Notes: a model not told the origin generated them from the letters alone. Counted from the first letter of the stretch, positions 114-46,697 are shown. The stretch is DNA of 64,000 nucleotides from Chthonomonas calidirosea T49 (GCF_000427095.1 NC_021487.1:434001-498000), one strand, 5' to 3'. A program made the numbers and translations.

Positions 114-132
114 TGCATAAATGAGTCATTGC

Positions 133-210
133 TTCCCTCCGTCGGCATTACCCGAATCAGGTTCATAGGGTTGGGCTAGGTAGCCCTCTCAGCTTTACAG
201 CACCCCTAGC
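133..210 (-). promoter_or_regulatory. TPP riboswitch (THI element)
   Basis: The minus strand carries the classic THI-box signatures in order: a GGGGTGC start, GCTGAGA, ACCC, then TGAACCTGATTCGGGTAATG, and a closing CGGAGGGA. These are the pyrimidine- and pyrophosphate-sensing helices of the thiamine pyrophosphate aptamer. Binding of TPP normally shuts off the downstream thiamine gene, here through the hairpin at 84-113. The spacing promoter, aptamer, terminator, SD, ATG is complete. Confidence 0.95.
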
Positions 211-231
211 ATAGAATGAGGATATAGTCAG

Positions 232-22263: not shown

Positions 22264-24744
22264 ATGTTTCGGAGGCCACTGAGAATATCAAAGGTTATCT
22301 GCATTGGAATAGCTATTGTCGCACTATGTGCTTTGGAAGGGTGTTTTGCGCCCGAAGTGCCGCCTGGCAAGATAAAGTTGGTTGTGTGGGGTATGCAGCT
22401 TGGAGAAGAGACGGCCGGGCTGGAGGCACGTATCGCTGCATTTGAAAAGATGCATCCCAACATCGTTGTGAGCGTGCTCGGTATGGGGGCAGGAAACATG
22501 GACCCTCAGAAGCTGATGACCTCCATCGTTGGCAATGTGCCCCCAGATGTTATTCACCAAGACAGGTTTACCATAGGGGATTGGGCTTCAAGGGATACTT
22601 TTCTCCCTTTAGACAATCTCATTGCGCGGGACAGAAACAAGCCCTTTGGGGTTAGGCCGGAAGATTACTATCCAGCTTGTTGGCGAGAGGCAACCTATAC
22701 AAATCCCAAGACCGGGGAGAAACATGTGTTCGCAATACCGGATTCCACGGACGATAGAGCTTTATTTTACAACAAAGCGCTGTTTCGTGAAGCGGGGATA
22801 GTAGATGCGAAAGGGAATCCTATGCCGCCGCGCACTTGGGATGAGCTTCTACAAGACGCTGTTAAGCTCACAAAGTACAATCCCGACGGTACTATCAACC
22901 GTATTGGTTTTATTCCGAATTATGGAAACTCTTGGCTCTATCTTTACGCTTGGCAGAACGATGGCGAGTTTATGTCTCCAGATGGAAAGCATTGCACAAT
23001 GAATGCCAAACCCAACGTCGAGGCGCTGGCCTACATGGTGAAAGTCTATGACGCCTTGGGCGGGATTAACAAGATCAGTGCATTCCAATCGGGATTTCAG
23101 CCTAATGAGCTTGATCCCTTTCTGACAGGCAAAGTCGCGATGAAGATAGACGGTTCGTGGGTACCCGCATCTATTGCGCGGTACAAACCAGACCTTGATT
23201 TCGGCGTTGCCCCAGCTCCGGTGCCCGCAGATCGGTACTATCATCGTGGCCGTTTTGCACACGATAAGGATACTTTCGTAACTTGGGCAGGAGGCTTCTC
23301 CTACGCTATTCCTCGAGGGGCTCGTCATGTCGAGGCTGCTTGGGAGTTCATTAAATGGATGACTAGCCCTCAGGCCGCTTTAATTGATGCAGAAGCTACC
23401 AAAGCTTACGATGCATCTAAAGGACGTCCCTTTGTACCGAGTCTTTCGGCAAATCGCATGACGAATCGGGTTGTGTTTGCTAAATACGGTCCTAAAGATC
23501 CGAAGTTTAAAAAAGCCATGGAACTTTTTATCTCCATGATGGATCACGCGAGGTTTCGGCCGGTGACCTTTGTGGGACAGAGGCTGTGGGACGAGCAAGT
23601 AAGAGCCATGGATGTTGCGACACATCATCAAAAATCACCACAAGCGGCTCTAGATGAAGCGACACGTGTTGTCCAACACGAGCTTGATAAGGTTTTTGAG
23701 GAGGACACCTATCCTTTGATTCCACCTGTCGTGCCTATCGTCTTAAGTGTCATAGCAGGATGCGTTGTGCTCGGCATAGCCCTATGGCGAGTATTCCAGA
23801 TTCTACGTATGCGTCAGCTGGGCAGAGCGGAGGCAATTGCGGGGTATGTCTTCATCGCACCTTGGCTTGTAGGCTTTTTGATATTTACAGCAGGACCTAT
23901 GATCGCCTCTCTCTACTTTAGCTTTTGCGACTACGATGTGCTTCATCCGGCTCGATGGGTTGGTTTGCATAATTATGTCGAGATGTTTGGTCGTGACGAT
24001 GGGTACTATCTGCGTGTTTCTCTATTTAATGCAATGTATGTAGCTGTTATAGGCATCCCTCTTGGAATCGTTACGAGCCTTTCGGTGGCCCTGCTGCTCA
24101 ACGCGAAGGTAAAGGGCATGAGCTTCTACCGAACTGCATTTTACTTACCCTCTATTGTGCCCGTGGTCGCTAGTGCTGTCTTATGGATATGGCTCCTCAA
24201 TGGCGACCCAAATCGAGGTCTAATTGATGCCGCATGGAAGGCGACGCTCGATCGGTGGTTTGGATGGGCACCTCCGGGATGGTTAGCTGACGCTGCGTGG
24301 GCGAAACCTGCCCTTATTTTACAAGGATTATGGGGAGCAGGTTCTGGCATGATCCTGTGGCTTGCTGGTTTGCAGGGTATCCCGCAACATCTCTATGAGG
24401 CCGCTGAAATAGACGGCGCTGGTTGGTGGGCAAAATTTCGCAACGTCACCGTGCCCATGCTTTCACCCTACATTTTCTTCAACGTGATTATGGGCATCAT
24501 AGGCACCCTACAACAGTTTGACAGTGTTTATGTATTATCCGGGGGAGATTTGAGCCAGCCGGCCGGTCCGCTGGACAGTCTTCTTATGCCTGTACTCTAT
24601 CTCTTTAAGAACGCCTTTCAGTACTTCAAGATGGGCTTTGCCTCTGCGCTTGCCTGGTTTTTATTTGTGATCATCCTTCTGCTCACGCTCATTCAACTGA
24701 AGCTAGCACCTAGATGGGTCTACTACGAGGCAGAGAAACGATGA
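22264..24744 (+). CDS. Sugar ABC transporter: binding lipoprotein fused to permease
   Basis: 826 residues joining two normally separate subunits. Residues 1-27 are a lipoprotein signal ending at CALEGC. Residues about 35-460 are a family 1 (MalE/UgpB-like) solute-binding protein (IKLVVWGMQLGEE, FITWAGG-like FVTWAGGFSYAIPRGA, WEFIKWMTSPQAAL). One span near 485 leads to a MalF/UgpA-type permease (AGYVFIAPWLVGFLIF near 525; EAA loop YEAAEIDGAGWWAKFRNVTVP near 710). The binding protein is tethered to its own membrane subunit, probably raising local concentration. The matching second permease is 1.6 kb downstream. No ATPase gene is in the operon, so a shared MsiK/UgpC-type ATPase elsewhere is likely. 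Substrate is probably an oligosaccharide or glycerol phosphate. Confidence 0.9.
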   Translation: MFRRPLRISKVICIGIAIVALCALEGCFAPEVPPGKIKLVVWGMQLGEETAGLEARIAAFEKMHPNIVVSVLGMGAGNMDPQKLMTSIVGNVPPDVIHQDRFTIGDWASRDTFLPLDNLIARDRNKPFGVRPEDYYPACWREATYTNPKTGEKHVFAIPDSTDDRALFYNKALFREAGIVDAKGNPMPPRTWDELLQDAVKLTKYNPDGTINRIGFIPNYGNSWLYLYAWQNDGEFMSPDGKHCTMNAKPNVEALAYMVKVYDALGGINKISAFQSGFQPNELDPFLTGKVAMKIDGSWVPASIARYKPDLDFGVAPAPVPADRYYHRGRFAHDKDTFVTWAGGFSYAIPRGARHVEAAWEFIKWMTSPQAALIDAEATKAYDASKGRPFVPSLSANRMTNRVVFAKYGPKDPKFKKAMELFISMMDHARFRPVTFVGQRLWDEQVRAMDVATHHQKSPQAALDEATRVVQHELDKVFEEDTYPLIPPVVPIVLSVIAGCVVLGIALWRVFQILRMRQLGRAEAIAGYVFIAPWLVGFLIFTAGPMIASLYFSFCDYDVLHPARWVGLHNYVEMFGRDDGYYLRVSLFNAMYVAVIGIPLGIVTSLSVALLLNAKVKGMSFYRTAFYLPSIVPVVASAVLWIWLLNGDPNRGLIDAAWKATLDRWFGWAPPGWLADAAWAKPALILQGLWGAGSGMILWLAGLQGIPQHLYEAAEIDGAGWWAKFRNVTVPMLSPYIFFNVIMGIIGTLQQFDSVYVLSGGDLSQPAGPLDSLLMPVLYLFKNAFQYFKMGFASALAWFLFVIILLLTLIQLKLAPRWVYYEAEKR

Positions 24745-25757
24745 ATGATCGTTCGGATTCCCTTGATCTACCAGAAAAGAGCGACACCGACCTCTTGAAG
24801 ACCCGGCAGTTCATTCAAGATGACATCGTGGGCCTGCTGCTTGCTGACCGCAGAAGTGAAAATACGCGGCGCGCTTATGCAGCCGATCTCAACGATTTCT
24901 TTCGATTTGCCTTTCGAGTTCTTCCGACGCCAGAGGGCGTAAGGCGGTTTTTAAGCCTGACAGCAGCTGAAATGACTGCGCTGTTGTTCCGTTATAAAGC
25001 CCACCTCATGGAGCGAGGGCTGGCAGAGGCGACCGTAAATCGGAGATTAGCGGCGATAAAAAGCCTCGTCCGCTTTGCAAGACGCTTAGGCCTTACCGAT
25101 GTAGTTTTAGAGGGACGCATTGTTGGGGAGCGAGTGAGACCTTATCGTGACACCACAGGGGTTGATGGTGTAACGGCTCGTGAACTAGTAAGTTCCATAG
25201 ATACGACAACCCTTGTCGGGAAGCGCGATACCGTATTAATGTTGCTCCTTCTAGAGAATGCGTTGCGTCGCGCCGAAATTGTGGCTTTGCGTGTTGGAGA
25301 CTATGATGCGGTCTCGGGGACGCTTTCAATAACAGGTAAAGGACGGGGGACACAAAAAGAGTGCATCCGCCTCTCTGCCCGATTGCAAGAGGCATTGCGG
25401 ACTTATCTAGAAGCTAGTGGACATGGGGGTAGCGATTCTGCACCTCTATTGATCAGCCTCAGTAACTGTCGCCGGGGGCAGGCTCTTACGGCAGATGGTG
25501 TTTACAAGATTGTGCGCACGCGTGCGAAAGCATGCGGTATTGGCAAGCCCGTCAGTCCTCACCGTTTACGACACACCGCTATCACTTTGGCTCTCGATCT
25601 TTCCAAAGGCGATATTCGCCGGGTTCAGCGTCTTTCACGACACGCACGTTTAGAGACGCTTCAAGTATATGACGATAACCGTCAGGACTTACAGGGTGAG
25701 ATAAGCGACATGCTCTCCAGATATCTGTCTGATGAGGCCTCATCGAAGTCTGTATAA
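24741..25757 (+). CDS. Tyrosine recombinase (integrase / XerC-D superfamily)
   Basis: 338 residues from the ATG at 24741, whose ATGA overlaps the stop of the transporter gene. N-terminal SAM-like core-binding domain (about 25-120: ENTRRAYAADLNDFFRFA, AEATVNRRLAAIKSLVRFA). Catalytic domain with a full residue set: Arg in ENALRRAEIVALRVGDY, Lys in ITGKGRGTQKE, HRLRH in SPHRLRHTAITLAL, His in LSRHARLETLQ and nucleophile Tyr in QVYDDN. All appear intact, so it should cut and rejoin DNA. Length is XerC/D-like, but its place inside a sugar-transport operon with a HTH protein behind it is not that of a housekeeping Xer. No att repeats were identified by eye. Confidence 0.9.
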   Translation: MNDRSDSLDLPEKSDTDLLKTRQFIQDDIVGLLLADRRSENTRRAYAADLNDFFRFAFRVLPTPEGVRRFLSLTAAEMTALLFRYKAHLMERGLAEATVNRRLAAIKSLVRFARRLGLTDVVLEGRIVGERVRPYRDTTGVDGVTARELVSSIDTTTLVGKRDTVLMLLLLENALRRAEIVALRVGDYDAVSGTLSITGKGRGTQKECIRLSARLQEALRTYLEASGHGGSDSAPLLISLSNCRRGQALTADGVYKIVRTRAKACGIGKPVSPHRLRHTAITLALDLSKGDIRRVQRLSRHARLETLQVYDDNRQDLQGEISDMLSRYLSDEASSKSV

Positions 25758-25803
25758 TACTCATTATCAAGCCTAAGTTGGACACCATATCAAGGACGCT
25801 CAA

Positions 25804-26295
25804 ATGGATACGACTGAGCAACACATAGAGAACACCGTTCGTGGGGTAACCATTTCTGAGGCAGCTCGTCGGCTAGGTGTATCAGAACGAACGATCTATC
25901 GGTATGTCAAAAATGGCAGACTAAAGACAGACAACACATCGGGTAAAATTCGAGTATTACTCCAGAATATAATCTCGGATGAAGAGGGTTTGTCTAAAGA
26001 AGTCAGACAATTATCTGAAAGATTCAGACAATACGACGAACGATTTAATCGCGTTATTGCCTTGCTGGATGGGCTGCGTCATGAGCAGGGGCGTCTACAA
26101 CACGAAATAGATAGAATTTACCTACTGCTTAAGGATGCCCTCCAGTCTAATGAGAGACTTCAGCAAGCTCTCGTGGACTTGCTGAAAGCAAAGGAGGAGA
26201 ACAAACTTGATCGGGCAAACGCCCGCAATGGAGACGGTCACAGCTTTCCGGCGTTACTAGGGCGAATTCTAAAACGTAAGGGTGACAGTGAGTAA
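25804..26295 (+). CDS. Excisionase/MerR-type HTH protein with long coiled coil
   Basis: 163 residues. TISEAARRLGVSERTIYRYV at about 16-35, followed by KNGRLKTD, is the winged HTH of the excisionase/MerR (HTH_17) class. Residues about 55-135 form a long amphipathic coiled coil (LSKEVRQLSERFRQYDERF, RLQHEIDRIYLLLKDAL), followed by a basic tail (LLGRILKRKG). The order HTH-coiled coil recalls DNA-bridging or chromosome-anchoring proteins as well as recombination directionality factors. An AAGGA lies before the ATG. It sits between the recombinase and the second permease, all in the same direction. Confidence 0.75.
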   Translation: MDTTEQHIENTVRGVTISEAARRLGVSERTIYRYVKNGRLKTDNTSGKIRVLLQNIISDEEGLSKEVRQLSERFRQYDERFNRVIALLDGLRHEQGRLQHEIDRIYLLLKDALQSNERLQQALVDLLKAKEENKLDRANARNGDGHSFPALLGRILKRKGDSE

Positions 26296-26316: not shown

Positions 26317-27639
26317 ATGAATAGTTCTGTATTGGCACCCATATGGGTTGTATTAGCCGTCTTTTGCGCGGTTGTATTTGTGGGAGCGTGGATTCCTCTT
26401 GTGTTGGGAGCGTTTCACGCACGCGCAAAGTCCATCGTATTTATTCTAGCTTGTCTACTACCTCTTTGGGTACTGATAATGGCCATACTACCTTTTACTC
26501 CTGTGTGGAAGACTCTAGTGAGTTCGATCCCCTGTCTTGGAGTGGAAGTATGGCTCTACCGATTTTTCATTCGGCGCACTTTCCCTTGGCAAAGCTTGAA
26601 GTACATCAGGGAATCGGCTCGTCAAACGACTTTACATATGATTCTTATCGCCGGCTCAATCCTTTTTCTGGTTCCTTTTGCATGGCTCGTTTCCACATCA
26701 TTGAAAGATGATTCTCAGATGAGTCGATTTCCGCCGGTTTGGATACCTACTCAGCAAGATCATGTACGTCTACATGGCGTAGATTATCCGGTCTACTGGA
26801 CCGAATATCGGGGGAATAAACTCCTTGTTGCAGCTCTCGGTGATGTTACCCATGGCATGCGGCCTGTGGAGGTAATTTCGAAGGGGATTTATCGTGGACA
26901 GCGGTTATGGATTTCGGGCGCTGCGATGCATGAGGTAAGGCATTTTGCACCAAAATGGCAGAACTATGTGGATGCCTTACGTTTTCTTCCACCTGAAACC
27001 CATTACGGGCTGGTTTTTCTCATCAATACAGTAGAGATAACAGTGCTATCTATTTTAGGAGCTCTATTTTCTGCATCAACCGTTGCCTATGGTTTTGCTC
27101 GTCTGAGGTTTCCCGGTCGTGACGCTCTTTTTATGCTGGTGCTTGCGACGATGATGTTACCTTCAGCGGTCACGATGATGCCGGTTTTCCTGATCTTTCG
27201 TTGGCTTGGCTGGATCGATACTCTTAAACCTTTGTGGGTGCCCGCCTTTTTCGGCTCGGCCTTCTATATCTTTATGTTGCGACAGTTCTTTCTTAGTATC
27301 CCCAACGAGTTAGAAGATGCGGCGAAGATAGATGGTTGTTCGTTTTACATGACCTATTGGCGCATTATGCTGCCGCAGATTAAGCCTGCTTTGGCTGCAG
27401 TTACCATTATGACGTTTATGGGAGCCTGGAACGACTTTCGAGGGCCGCTGATATACATCAGTTCTCCTGCCCATGAAACGTTAGCCTATGCTTTACAGCT
27501 TTTTCAGAATGCGCACGGTGGAGAGCCGGGGATGATGATGGCCGCCTCCACCATGGTGATGCTGCCAGTATTAGTGATATTCTTCTTCACACAACGTTAC
27601 TTTATTGAAGGAGTGACACTCACGGGTATCAAAGGATGA
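26317..27639 (+). CDS. Sugar ABC transporter permease (MalG-like)
   Basis: 440 residues, much longer than the usual 270-300. The first three hydrophobic spans (about 1-85) precede a second start-like region where MalG-type sequence begins (HMILIAGSILFLVPFAWLVSTSLKDD near 108). A periplasmic insert of about 100 residues (QQDHVRLHGVDYPVYWTEYR onward) separates the first permease span from the core. Core: STVAYGFARLRFPGRDALF, MLRQFFLSIPNELEDAAKIDG with EAA-type motif, and C-terminal RYFIEGVTLTGIKG, typical of MalG/UgpE. It pairs with the fused protein at 22264. GGGGAGAGG is just upstream of the ATG. Confidence 0.9.
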   Translation: MNSSVLAPIWVVLAVFCAVVFVGAWIPLVLGAFHARAKSIVFILACLLPLWVLIMAILPFTPVWKTLVSSIPCLGVEVWLYRFFIRRTFPWQSLKYIRESARQTTLHMILIAGSILFLVPFAWLVSTSLKDDSQMSRFPPVWIPTQQDHVRLHGVDYPVYWTEYRGNKLLVAALGDVTHGMRPVEVISKGIYRGQRLWISGAAMHEVRHFAPKWQNYVDALRFLPPETHYGLVFLINTVEITVLSILGALFSASTVAYGFARLRFPGRDALFMLVLATMMLPSAVTMMPVFLIFRWLGWIDTLKPLWVPAFFGSAFYIFMLRQFFLSIPNELEDAAKIDGCSFYMTYWRIMLPQIKPALAAVTIMTFMGAWNDFRGPLIYISSPAHETLAYALQLFQNAHGGEPGMMMAASTMVMLPVLVIFFFTQRYFIEGVTLTGIKG

Positions 27640-27684
27640 AGATCGGCTATAATGGCAGTGAACGTTTTAGGGAGACGAAGTGAG

Positions 27685-28581
27685 ATGCCGTTTCAGCTGT
27701 TTCAAAAGATACGGAATACCATAGAGCAGGTTGTCGGTGGAGGTAGGGGGGTTGATGAGGAGCTTTATGAGGAGCTTGAGGCTTCCCTCATTCAGGCAGA
27801 TATTAACGTGCAGACGACGCAGCGTCTGATAGGTGCTCTCCGAAGAGCCGTAGAAGAAGAGGGAATACGCTCTATTCAACAGGCTGTGGAAGCTTTAAAG
27901 CGAGAGATGGTGGCTATCTTAGAGGTTGGCGATCCTTCTACAATGGGTCTCAAGGAGGCCTCTTTGCCTCCAACGCTTTATCTAGTCGTTGGGGTAAATG
28001 GAGTAGGGAAGACGACCACGATCGCGAAGATCGCGCATATGCTGCAGAGCCGCGGTAAGCGTGTGATACTAGCAGCCGGAGATACCTTTCGCGCGGCAGC
28101 CATTGACCAGCTAGCGGAGTGGGCGCAGCGTACAGGAACCGATTTGGTTCGTCATCGGGAGGGGGCCGATCCCTCTGCTGTTATTTACGACGCGATTCGG
28201 GCGGCTCGAGCGAGGAGCGTTGATTATGTTATTGCTGATACGGCCGGTCGTCTACACACTCGCTCGAACTTGATGGAGGAGTTAAGGAAAATCCACCGAG
28301 TTGCGGAGCGGGAGCTCGAGCGTGTTCCGGACGAGGTGCTTTTAGTTCTCGATGCGACTACGGGGCAGAACGCAATAAGTCAAGCAAAACTGTTCATGAA
28401 GTATATCCCTATCACAGGGATAGTTTTGACGAAGTTAGATGGGACGGCGCGAGGGGGTATTGTCCTTAGCATAGCGGATGATTTGAAGTTGCCGATAAAG
28501 TTAGTAGGGACTGGAGAGCGATTAGAAGCGTTAGAGGAGTTTAACGCTCGTCGTTTTGTGGATAGGTTGTTAGAGGTTTAG
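27685..28581 (+). CDS. ftsY: Signal recognition particle receptor FtsY
   Basis: SRP GTPase receptor for co-translational membrane insertion. About 298 residues: short N domain (FQKIRNTIEQVVGG, LIQADINVQTTQRLI) without the acidic A domain of E. coli, then the G domain: GVNGVGKTTTIAKIA (G1), GDTFRAAAIDQL, ADTAGRLHTRSNLMEEL (G3), LTKLDGTARGG (G4), and C-terminal GTGERLEALEEFNARRFVDRLL. A TATAAT at 27647-27652 overlaps an upstream in-frame ATG at 27652, so the ATG at 27685 is preferred; the longer form adds 11 residues. Confidence 0.95.
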   Translation: MPFQLFQKIRNTIEQVVGGGRGVDEELYEELEASLIQADINVQTTQRLIGALRRAVEEEGIRSIQQAVEALKREMVAILEVGDPSTMGLKEASLPPTLYLVVGVNGVGKTTTIAKIAHMLQSRGKRVILAAGDTFRAAAIDQLAEWAQRTGTDLVRHREGADPSAVIYDAIRAARARSVDYVIADTAGRLHTRSNLMEELRKIHRVAERELERVPDEVLLVLDATTGQNAISQAKLFMKYIPITGIVLTKLDGTARGGIVLSIADDLKLPIKLVGTGERLEALEEFNARRFVDRLLEV

Positions 28582-28586
28582 AGGGT

Positions 28587-28620
28587 GGGCGGCGCCGTTG
28601 GCGCCGCCCGCGTGTTTTTT
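28587..28620 (+). terminator. ftsY intrinsic terminator
   Basis: A perfect 10-bp GC stem GGGCGGCGCC/GGCGCCGCCC with a three-base loop, followed by GCGTG and six Ts, directly after the ftsY stop. Confidence 0.92.
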
Positions 28621-30003: not shown

Positions 30004-32235
30004 ATGTTCTTCAGCTCTCCTTCAGAACGTCGAAAACTATGGTTTCCCCAGTACAGTAGAATACCTCAGTGCTTCCGAAGATTGACCGTTCCCATCATGC
30101 TGCTCGCCTATACTCTGCTGCTTTATCGCGAGTTTTTTGAAGGCAAAACGCTCTATTGGGGAGATATTCTCTACTATTTTCAACCCATGGCCCTTTTTGC
30201 TGCAAAGGAGATACAACGGGGACGCTTGCCTCTTTGGAACCCTTTTTTGCTATGTGGACAGCCTTATGTAGGAAACCCGCAGATTGGCCTATTTTATCCT
30301 TTTTCCGCACTATTGCTTTGGCTTTCGGCTTGGCAATACATCACGTTAGCTGCGCTGATTCACACTTACCTTGCTGCTCTGTTTTGTTACGGTTTTTTAA
30401 AGCTGAGAACACAAAGTACCTCCGCAGCTCTCCTCGGAGCAATCGTCTTTAGTGGAAGCGGCGCCTTCTTGGGAAAAGCCCAATTCCCGCCGATGCTCTT
30501 TAGCCTGTGCTACCTTCCCTGTGTGTTCTATAGCGTAGAGAATGCGATCCAGAGGGGCTCCTTTATAAGTAAAATCCAAATTGCGATCGCTGTTTGTCTC
30601 TTAATTTTAGCCGCACATCCCCAGGTTGCTTATCTTACTTTCCTGTTACTGTTCGCCTATCTTCCTTTTCGCCTGCATAGTCTTAGACGTCCAACAAGAA
30701 CAGTGCAAAAGAAGTCATCAGGTCCTCTCAAGGCGTTTTACGGCTGCGTTGCCGGAATCATTTGGGGGATATTCCTTAGCAGTTGTCAGCTATTTCCTGT
30801 TCTACAACTGGCGCTGGATAGCTCACGTGAACATCTCACTCCATGGCAAGCCAATCGTTTTGTGCTTCATCCTCTTGATCTGCTAGGCCTCCTATTCCCT
30901 CATTTCTTCGGGAGCCCCGCCTATGCGAACTACTGGGGTGCAGGTAACGCTTGGGAGATTGCCGTTTTTATTGGTTGGATACCTCTAATATTTATAGGAT
31001 ATGCGCTCTTGTCGTGGAGGTACTCGCCGGATGTTCGCTTCTGGTGTACAGTTTTGCTTTTCGCACTGTGGCTGAGCTTCGGCATTTCTATGGGGCTCTA
31101 TTGGATCGCTTTCTACGTACTGCCCGGGATCGCGCTCTTCCATGATCCGGCTCGATTTTTGATTGTTTTCCATTTCGCCGCATGTGTCCTAGCCGCTCAC
31201 GGCTATGGCATCTTTAGAAAACAGCTACCGCAAAGAGGAGCAATCTACGTAACCTGCTCTGCTGTGATACTTACAGCACTTCCTCTCGTATATTACACAA
31301 CGGATTGGTTGCCTATGGTTTCTCCAGATCGCCTAACACTTACCCAGACACCGATTCGGCTGTCTTTCGCTTCCCGAATATACACGCCAGAACACTCGAC
31401 CTACTGGAGTCGCTTCGTGACCGAGGGCTATGCTGACTATGGTGAGAGCTCGCGGCGATTCCTGCAACTGCGGCTACATACACTTCTTCCGAACCTCAAT
31501 ATGAACGCAGACCTGCCCTCCGCCTCTGCCTACGAGCCTGTCCCTATTGCTGCCGCAGCCCGGGTTGATGGCATGACTCGCCTAGCGATCTCCCTGGGCG
31601 AACCTAATGCCATCCGCCTTATATCGCTGATGAATGTTTCCGCTTTGCTATTGCCACGCATATATCATTTTTCCAATCCGTGGCTTAACGAAATACGAAG
31701 TACGTATGGGCCCTTGAGAACCTACTTGAACTTCTACCCACACGCACAGGTTTGGACAGTGGAGCAGCTCATTGCCGTCGACAATCTCATGCGACAAGAA
31801 GACATTATGGCTTCCCCACATTTCGACCCGTTAAAGCAGGCCGTCCTAAAAAGACTACCTCCTCATTCTCATTGGGTCTATAACCCTTTGATGCCTGCAA
31901 AGTCGGTTGTCGCTAAGGCCGTATGGAAGTCGCCAGATACCCTGTCGATATTTGTACAGACATCGCACCCTACATTCGTTGTCTGTTCTGTAACTGCACA
32001 ACCCGGATGGCATGCCAGAGAAAACGGACATGATATACCCCTCTATTCCACGGACATGGCATTTATGGGGTTTCCGCTCAGTCCAGGAACACACCGCCTG
32101 TCTCTCTTCTACTGCCCGGCCGCTTTTGCCATTGGAAGCTACATGTCTTTATCAACCCTATCTGTATTGATCGGTATGCTTCTCTCTCAATACATGTGCA
32201 AGTGGAGGTGCCATTTTCGTGCAGCAAGGAACTAA
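30004..32235 (+). CDS. YfhO-like polytopic membrane protein
   Basis: About 743 residues with roughly 12-13 hydrophobic spans and a C-terminal extracytoplasmic domain. YfhO/GT-C-like proteins help transfer lipid-linked sugars. Family features: FEGKTLYWGDILYYFQPMA and GRLPLWNPFLLCGQPYVGNP in the first loop, YPFSALLLWL, and FPHFFGSPAYANYWG. The C-terminal VVCSVTAQPGWHARENG and MGFPLSPGTHRLSLFYCPA is the typical beta end. A GTG at 29989 would add five residues; ATG at 30004 has AGGG just before it. It overlaps the next gene by 17 bases, so the two were probably an envelope glycosylation operon. Confidence 0.85.
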   Translation: MFFSSPSERRKLWFPQYSRIPQCFRRLTVPIMLLAYTLLLYREFFEGKTLYWGDILYYFQPMALFAAKEIQRGRLPLWNPFLLCGQPYVGNPQIGLFYPFSALLLWLSAWQYITLAALIHTYLAALFCYGFLKLRTQSTSAALLGAIVFSGSGAFLGKAQFPPMLFSLCYLPCVFYSVENAIQRGSFISKIQIAIAVCLLILAAHPQVAYLTFLLLFAYLPFRLHSLRRPTRTVQKKSSGPLKAFYGCVAGIIWGIFLSSCQLFPVLQLALDSSREHLTPWQANRFVLHPLDLLGLLFPHFFGSPAYANYWGAGNAWEIAVFIGWIPLIFIGYALLSWRYSPDVRFWCTVLLFALWLSFGISMGLYWIAFYVLPGIALFHDPARFLIVFHFAACVLAAHGYGIFRKQLPQRGAIYVTCSAVILTALPLVYYTTDWLPMVSPDRLTLTQTPIRLSFASRIYTPEHSTYWSRFVTEGYADYGESSRRFLQLRLHTLLPNLNMNADLPSASAYEPVPIAAAARVDGMTRLAISLGEPNAIRLISLMNVSALLLPRIYHFSNPWLNEIRSTYGPLRTYLNFYPHAQVWTVEQLIAVDNLMRQEDIMASPHFDPLKQAVLKRLPPHSHWVYNPLMPAKSVVAKAVWKSPDTLSIFVQTSHPTFVVCSVTAQPGWHARENGHDIPLYSTDMAFMGFPLSPGTHRLSLFYCPAAFAIGSYMSLSTLSVLIGMLLSQYMCKWRCHFRAARN

Positions 32236-33803
32236 CCACTGGAAAAAGCCTCTGTTCTTCCTTTTGGTACTTGTAGCCCTTGGACTTATGATTTTCTTTC
32301 GTGTCTACGCTTTAGACAGCGATGCATATCCTCGCCTCTCCTGGAGCAGCGCCCTCCTCACCGATGAAGGCTTCTACCTCCATAACGCCAGAAACCAACT
32401 CCTCTTCCATCACCCCATCACCGATGACTTCAATAATGAGCTCATCATGCCCTACCTCCACTACGCCCAAATCGCTACCTTCCACCTCCTCGGTACCGGC
32501 CTCCTCCAAGACCGCCTCCTCAGCGTCCTTTTCTCCCTCCTGACCCTCCCCCTCCTCTTCTTCCCAACCCAACGCCTCTTCGATACCCCTACCGCCCTCC
32601 TCGCTACCCTCCTGTGGGGACTGAGCCATGCCAACTTCCTCTACAACCGCCTCGCCCTCATGGACACTCCCGGAGCTTTCTTCCTTAGCTTAGGGTGGGC
32701 GTTGTGGGTGGAAGGACTGCTCGCGGCAGAGAGAGGTCGAGGCGGGGTGTGGATGGGGCTGAGTGGGTCCGGTGTTGGGAGCGGTGTATGGGGTTCGAGG
32801 GCTTGGGGCGCTGGTGTGGGGGGGTGCCGTTGGGGGGTGTTGGGATGGACAAGACGATGGGCGCTTGTTGGGCTGGTGGAGTGGAGGGCTCCTCGCTTCC
32901 CTCCTCTTCTATCTCCTCTGGTGGTATCTCCCACATGCCGCCCAAATTGAGCACATGGATCACTACTATATCGCGGTACAACTTGAGCCTCATAGCATAA
33001 CTCAGCTCTGGCACAATGTGAGGGAAGCTTTCTTTAGCTGGGGTAGGGGACTTTGGCCATATCTCATAAAACATATGCCAATCGAGGTTCTCATGACCAT
33101 CTATCTACTTGCAACTACGTTAAGACCAATAGTGAGACATTTACAAAAGAGATATCTCAACATACAAGAAATGAGTATCCTCTACCTAGTCGGATGGATT
33201 TGTGTCTTTACGCTTTTTCTATGCGTCGTAAACTATGCGCCATCTCGCTATTATGTGCTTTTCTATCCGGCACTGTCCATACTTGCGGCTGTAGGACTAA
33301 AGCAGATAACAGAGAACTTACGTCGTGGCAAAGCAGTGCTTGCGGGCCTACTTCTTCTATGGGGGCTGGTCAATACCTACTGGGTTAGTGATTGGCTTAC
33401 CCACCTCACTTATCGCCAAGAGGCGGCCGACAGATGGCTCGGTGAACATCTTCCACAAAATGCGGTTGTGTTTGGCGCGGTAGCGCCAGGATTGTGCATC
33501 AACAACCACCTTCTCCCCATTTGCATGATCGCTGGTCTGTGCAATGATCATCATCCTGTAGAACGGTTTGCAGGAAGACCAAGATATATTCTCATCCTTG
33601 ATAATAACGGCAAAGACCATCGCTGGAGAGAACGATGGTGGGTTCAACACTACCCTGATCTTGTTGACCCGAAACGGCGCATTCATGCATTTAGACATAT
33701 ACTACGCCCGTTTTTTACTATTGGTCTTTATGAGGTTCCACCGAATTGGCCAGGAGAAAGCAGTTCTCCTAAAACGAAACCGCTGCACTCCCAAAGAGGG
33801 TAA
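32219..33803 (+). pseudogene. GT39-type membrane glycosyltransferase, frameshifted
   Basis: From a GTG at 32219 (GGAGGTG upstream) the frame encodes an ArnT/PMT-like protein: LLTDEGFYLHNARNQ holds the conserved acidic loop residues, then FFPTQRLFDTPTALLATLLWG and LYNRLALMDTPGAFFLSLGWAL. The frame loses sense between about 32745 and 32775 inside a G-rich stretch. The other frame (phase of 32763) continues with AVYGVRGLGALVWGGA, LLASLLFYLLWWYLPH and a normal C-terminal half to 33803. A shift equivalent to one extra base explains it. Runs of seven and six Gs lie at 32818-32824 and 32832-32837. Codon choice also flips from C-ending to G-ending near 32690. It may be a pseudogene, a phase-variable gene or an assembly error. 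Confidence 0.75.
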
Positions 33804-46588: not shown

Positions 46589-46697
46589 GGACATTTTGTG
46601 TTAAAAACGAATGTCCGATAAGACAAGGTATGTAAAAAAAATTAGATCTTGCAGCCACAACGGCCACGAAAACATAACCCAGAACACGAAACGCCGA

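Follow-up and report, generated by a model that had tools for sequence, protein, structure and literature searches.

Between two genes of a sugar ATP-binding cassette (ABC) transporter operon in Chthonomonas calidirosea T49 lie a tyrosine recombinase gene and a gene for a helix-turn-helix (HTH) and coiled-coil protein. The operon was found in a 64,000-nucleotide stretch (hereafter the window; G000:C1:434001-498000) of a 3.44-Mb single-contig genome. Here, the recombinase gene and its protein are called REC, the HTH plus coiled-coil gene and its protein HTHcc, and the REC-HTHcc pair the cassette. We propose, with confidence that is about evenly balanced, that REC, a 28-bp dif-like site, and HTHcc constitute one old, domesticated single-recombinase/single-site module from plasmid/phage systems. 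The cassette is syntenic among relatives, its two genes co-occur, REC belongs to a recombinase family of cyanobacterial plasmids and phages, and the site is conserved both in this family and in the cassettes of the relatives. We infer that REC may bind and recombine the site, that HTHcc may act as its partner, and that the module could contribute to terminus resolution or segregation.

Results

REC belongs to a plasmid and phage recombinase family

REC (24741..25757, + strand) encodes a protein of 338 aa that matches PF00589 (4.6e-19) and PF02899 (1.3e-9). The N-terminal SAM-like domain and the C-terminal catalytic domain with R, K, HxxR, H, and Y place it in the tyrosine recombinase superfamily (PF00589). 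The active-site residues listed in an earlier note on this DNA are all present and make up the complete R-K-H-R-H-Y set. Counted from the methionine at 24741, they are R176, K200, H274, R277, H301, and Y310, and they are invariant among eight relatives. The open frame might begin at 24714; the ATG at 24741 was taken as the start.

The genome has three PF00589 genes, of which REC is the third and is distinct from XerC and XerD. The NCBIfam scores of REC, 117 bits for XerC (its best match) and 101 bits, compare with cut-offs of 335 and 330 (TIGR02224 and TIGR02225, respectively), and thus do not make it an XerC or XerD equivalog. The other two genes look XerC/XerD-type, one with NCBIfam scores of 320 and 304 bits and the other as judged from its open reading frame, and both match PF00589 far better than REC does.

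Proteins ~45-53% identical to REC along most of its length are frequent in cyanobacteria, where many are plasmid-borne and some chromosomal. The identity (~45-55%) together with a dif-like site near the gene, with the core AA-NNNNNN-TT..C, assigns REC to this cyanobacterial plasmid/phage recombinase family. The family is also common in temperate phages, with further relatives in IMG/VR contigs where phage genes, terminase and endolysin among them, are present and a like site lies 55-79 bp upstream. In the REC tree, the Armatimonadota and related phage proteins split from the cyanobacterial ones at 100/100. Some cyanobacterial loci adjoin ParA/ParB, including those on Synechococcus elongatus plasmids. 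A general ParAB linkage of the family was rejected, as only 12 of 96 loci had it within 3 kb.

A 28-bp dif-like site adjoins many REC genes

An inverted repeat of 28 bp, with two 11-bp arms around a centre of 6 bp (11-6-11), recurs in the flanks of REC genes; one example is GGTTACGGAAA-CACTCA-TTATCGTAACC. It usually lies 30-110 bp upstream of REC. Under a fixed rule, a site was found at most 400 nt from REC in 60 of 105 loci versus 35 of 1260 control blocks. Covariance-model matches in the searched REC loci were nearly always single and adjoined REC. Because the sites were picked partly for palindromy, base-pair counts for the family site are biased, and a fair comparison comes instead from the control blocks and the held-out test. 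Cyanobacterial examples upstream of plasmid or chromosomal recombinase genes are L122:6907-6934, L169:6908-6935, and L181:6870-6897.

In the cassettes, the site is placed downstream of REC, ahead of HTHcc. A model lacking all cassette sites ranked the copies in two relatives, G027 (27.4 bits, E 1.5e-4) and G008 (22.7 bits), top over 259 kb, precisely in the REC-HTHcc spacer. The same model gave 12.5 bits for G009, and 13.9 bits for G010, in which the site-like sequence lies upstream of HTHcc although REC is elsewhere. In the window, the candidate site AGTCTGTATAA-TACTCA-TTATCAAGCCT (25747..25774, +) overlaps the REC stop, a position homologous to that in G009, G027, and G008. The 9-mer CATTATCAA is common to the window, G009, G027, and G010 (four of the five loci), and 0 of 2000 shuffles reproduced it. 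Its position and this shared 9-mer support the window copy as a candidate site. Thus, linkage of the recombinase gene to its own dif-like site is strong for the family, G027, and G008, and weak for the window copy.

A model including the window site scored it at 25.8 bits and the next best sequence in the genome at 17.8, and so indicated no second copy. A repeat scan found no convincing direct or inverted repeats flanking the cassette. Hence no attL/attR pair was recognised around it, and with only one candidate site in the genome, excision or inversion is unlikely. An invertible or excisable segment was accordingly rejected, and the phase-switch or excision idea of the earlier note did not hold up.

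Two other candidates were set aside. The core of the window site has ten exact 19-mer matches in IMG/VR; most of these contigs are AT-rich, the stretches examined contain no REC relative, and the matches are probably due to chance. An apparent att pair in G017 proved to be one site, as its two matches came from overlapping contig ends (145-bp overlap). G017 has a solitary REC (217-1218 of L075:95-1580, G017:C41) with a site at 95-122, just upstream. The next small gene, which REC overlaps by 4 bp, encodes a ribbon-helix-helix-like product, another candidate DNA-binding partner.

HTHcc is a putative accessory DNA-binding protein

HTHcc (25804..26295, +) has an HTH_17/MerR-like HTH (Pfam HTH_17, 3.6e-9), a coiled coil, and a short basic C-terminal tail, and is a putative accessory or partition-type DNA-binding protein. 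It matches TIGR01764 "excise" above the cut-off; excisionases are short HTH proteins that drive excision by binding next to an att site. The TIGR01764 and PHROG excisionase matches cover the HTH only, so that the label "excisionase-like", given to it previously, suits this short domain and nothing beyond it. Apart from the HTH_17/MerR-like HTH and the coiled coil, the five HTHcc proteins have little in common; four of them end in a short basic stretch that includes hydrophobic or aromatic residues.

TGTC/GACA half-sites are ~2.3-3.9 times denser in HTHcc genes than in their surroundings, and their total count across the five genes was reached in 2 of 2000 synonymous-codon shuffles, for a motif picked post hoc. 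In the window, they cluster within the HTHcc gene (25905..26031, +), with tandem 21-mers at 25990-26031; this candidate binding array is weak in the window and stronger in the relatives. That the array holds HTHcc binding sites is a possible lead, not a finding.

The cassette was probably gained at an operon junction and lost repeatedly

The cassette is preceded by a gene for a fused sugar-binding protein and MalF/UgpA-type permease (SBP-MalF; 22264..24744, +; Pfam SBP_bac_1 4.9e-38, BPD_transp_1 1e-12), which is syntenic in relatives. It is followed by a MalG/UgpE-type permease gene (26317..27639, +; Pfam BPD_transp_1 6.6e-18) and by ftsY for the signal recognition particle receptor (27652..28581, +; TIGR00064 1.5e-103), which ends the operon ahead of a terminator-like hairpin (28585-28611) found by a terminator scan. 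All five genes are co-directional on the + strand, and the REC start overlaps the SBP-MalF stop codon (ATGA). Gene calls and Pfam matches therefore bear out the description of an intact REC with HTHcc on the same strand, nested in a sugar ABC operon. No tRNA was detected at the MalF/MalG junction in a window scan, and between MalF and MalG there are no other mobile-element genes beside REC and HTHcc. The base composition of the locus is ordinary, and the G+C content at third codon positions (GC3) of REC follows that of the host genes.

Presence or absence was examined in 31 genomes of the order, and an HTHcc profile was searched over 61 genomes. The REC family occurs in 8 of the 31. The order SBP-MalF, REC, HTHcc, MalG is found in four genera of two families, namely in the window, G008, and G009 (one family) and in G027 (the other). 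The junction is empty, with MalF directly before MalG, in at least ten relatives (G004, G007, G011, G017, G018, G019, G023, G024, G026, and G029), as well as in G035 and G042 from other groups. G010 keeps both genes unlinked, REC after a GlnD-like gene and HTHcc on a different contig, and has only distant paralogues of the transporter genes. In G034 (L100:4907-6133, G034:C40), the SBP-MalF/MalG junction is filled by two unrelated genes, for a PD-(D/E)XK family protein and a methyltransferase.

Barring one generic HTH match, every HTHcc came from the five genomes that also carry the operonic REC clade. The same five members served to train the profile, which inflates their scores, and no other genome came near. 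Other REC branches (G013, G017, G023, and G034) are without HTHcc, and none was found beside cyanobacterial REC genes when looked for there. The REC tree leaves the five cassette-type RECs unresolved as one clade, and a single clade is not rejected (approximately unbiased test, p 0.57). This grouping is compatible with the transporter tree, and the GC3 of each REC tracks its respective host. Old entry, vertical inheritance, and repeated loss would be the simplest account of this distribution; separate insertions of REC, each with this partner and each into this one junction, appear less likely. The earlier suggestion of a small element that inserted at a gene junction and was absorbed into the operon is thus supported by a junction that is empty in many relatives and filled in four genera, by the plasmid/phage type of REC, and by its host-like GC3.

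The cassette lies near the replication terminus

GC skew, sampled from regions of the chromosome, is positive before ~0.48 Mb and negative after, with the opposite switch near 2.3 Mb; local GC is low at the window. A candidate canonical XerCD dif, ATGTCCGATAA-GACAAG-GTATGTAAAAA (46611..46638, +), lies outside the module, 34 bp from the cumulative GC-skew maximum, and similar single copies were found in 11 relatives. It therefore marks the replication terminus (ter) within the window. Once it had been found, the REC site was set aside as the main chromosomal dif. The cassette site lies 20.9 kb from this dif and the skew maximum, and a random position would be that close ~1.2% of the time. In G008, the cassette would be ~11.7 kb from dif provided that contigs C83 and C51 are neighbours, which the gene order implies.

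Relative to dif, genes w47325 to w55461 (47-56 kb of the window) are on one side in the window and on the other in G008 (L265/L072), L083 of G011 also being compared. Thus the terminus region was rearranged while the ftsY operon remained near dif. The dnaA gene (G000:C1:1352441-1352925) is distant from both skew switch points (~0.48 and ~2.3 Mb). Its hidden Markov model match is broken into two overlapping parts, which may reflect a frameshift or a domain split.

Two further features of the window were recorded. A thiamine pyrophosphate riboswitch at 117-217 (-) scores above the gathering threshold. At 32219-33803, a membrane protein gene seems to run in different frames on either side of a G-rich stretch (~32730-32880), a possible frameshift or hypervariable insert.

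Discussion

With a single site per chromosome, a recombinase could neither invert nor excise a segment; its possible substrates would be sister copies, or an incoming circle that bears a matching site. Hence, in our reading, the cassette would be a domesticated single-site module that has a DNA-binding partner of its own. Its source would be the single-recombinase/single-site resolution systems of plasmids and phages. An ancestor of the Chthonomonadales would have acquired it at the SBP-MalF/MalG junction of an operon close to ter, and mostly vertical inheritance with repeated loss would have followed. REC would bind each site as a dimer and exchange strands between two paired copies of it, located on sister chromosomes or on the chromosome and an incoming circle. 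HTHcc may bind beside the site, partly at the TGTC/GACA repeats in its own gene, as an accessory or tethering protein that controls synapsis.

In XerS/difSL of streptococci and XerH/difH of Helicobacter and Campylobacter, one tyrosine recombinase acts with a ~28-31 bp imperfect inverted-repeat site adjoining its gene (PMC5357621, PMC5241119). The cassette resembles them as a single module, with 11-6-11 sites beside REC. Each of these systems, with its site at ter under FtsK control, is the sole means of chromosome resolution in its host, in contrast to the cassette, which coexists with XerC, XerD, and dif. Furthermore, REC falls in a different sequence group and has an HTH coiled-coil partner. 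XerL/dif of the Legionellales also relies on a single Xer-type recombinase, which can be plasmid-borne, as in Coxiella (PMC9765430); XerL is the sole Xer of its hosts, unlike REC, beside which XerCD is present. Thus, the module would work like the single-recombinase systems, and is set outside the chromosomal ones since XerCD and dif remain.

REC also resembles cyanobacterial plasmid recombinases (e.g., that of pANL from S. elongatus PCC 7942), many of which have the same type of dif-like site nearby. Those loci have no HTHcc, and their site precedes REC; the cassette, in contrast, has its site after REC and is part of an operon on the chromosome. In the resolution of plasmids at cer and psi, a core site works with a DNA-binding accessory protein (ArgR, PepA, or ArcA) on the flanking DNA (PMC5357621). 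A core site with an accessory protein is the logic proposed here for the cassette; where cer and psi use XerCD and host regulators, HTHcc would fill the accessory role. TubY, a MerR-like plasmid partition protein, has an N-terminal MerR-type HTH, a coiled coil, and a membrane-binding basic/hydrophobic C-terminal tail (PMC7762940), a layout that HTHcc recalls, with a basic tail in most members. TubY-like proteins are further marked by a tetrameric coiled coil, an amphipathic tail, and TubRZ neighbours. Unlike the TubY case, no TubZ or TubR was seen in the operon, and no homology is demonstrated beyond the HTH type.

Several observations weigh against a domesticated module. The window copy of the site scores 9.3 bits in a model excluding it, which is the best match in 3 kb and not significant genome-wide. 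Its right half is conserved and its left arm degenerate, so this weak site may be decayed. The TGTC/GACA motif was chosen after looking, and its enrichment is not significant in the window alone. With XerCD and dif both present, a second resolution system is not needed; the XerC/XerD-type genes and the canonical dif candidate mean that REC does not replace XerCD as the sole resolution system. Finally, in G011 the operon lies ~11 kb from dif without the cassette, and ter proximity may therefore belong to the operon.

The degenerate site would suit the principal rival, which we consider possible though rather doubtful: the pair may be a latent or decaying phage or plasmid remnant, an integrase and an excisionase-type protein with an old attachment half-site, carried as a passenger of little host benefit or used as an insertion point by elements whose core matches. 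Consistent with this are the REC relatives beside terminase and endolysin genes, with the same site type upstream, the absence of the cassette from several genera, and the match of HTHcc to phage excisionase families. However, the catalytic residues of REC have stayed intact across very long divergence, and four genera retain the cassette at one and the same junction, the pair persisting even when unlinked. Moreover, no second att-like site was found in the genome, and MalF and MalG enclose no other genes of such an element.

Control of the transport operon by the pair is improbable, whether through site-specific inversion or excision or through HTHcc/REC binding within it as a transcriptional switch. 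Tight gene packing and the ATGA overlap do suggest shared transcription and coupling, and an HTH protein could bind within the operon. Against this, the single site and the lack of supporting inverted repeats leave no invertible or excisable segment, and G010 keeps REC and HTHcc away from such an operon. The possibility that REC is an ordinary XerC or XerD that chances to sit here, which its best NCBIfam match and shared fold family might suggest, is refuted by a score far under the XerC cut-off, by two better-fitting Xer-type genes and a canonical dif candidate in the same genome, and by its patchy presence in the order; REC is thus neither the only XerC/XerD of the genome nor flanked by the same neighbours in all relatives, as the earlier note had reasoned an ordinary Xer gene would be.

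Returning to the domesticated module, a broader and more speculative extension, which we hold only tentatively and think unlikely as a whole, is that some Armatimonadota keep a second ter-proximal resolution/segregation module beside XerCD/dif. It would comprise a plasmid-type single recombinase, a 28-bp site private to it, and an HTH coiled-coil protein as a dedicated tether, with binding sites inside its own gene, and the site type would be the undescribed dif-like site of a widespread family of cyanobacterial plasmid, chromosome, and phage recombinases. Prediction of dif had failed in Cyanobacteria (PMC3025954). The predicted 28-bp target offers a concrete, testable site for this large plasmid/phage recombinase family.

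To our knowledge, single-recombinase resolution modules are known only from a few lineages. As a domesticated module, the cassette would show how a chromosome can capture such a system, which gains a partner protein and persists beside a seemingly intact XerCD/dif.

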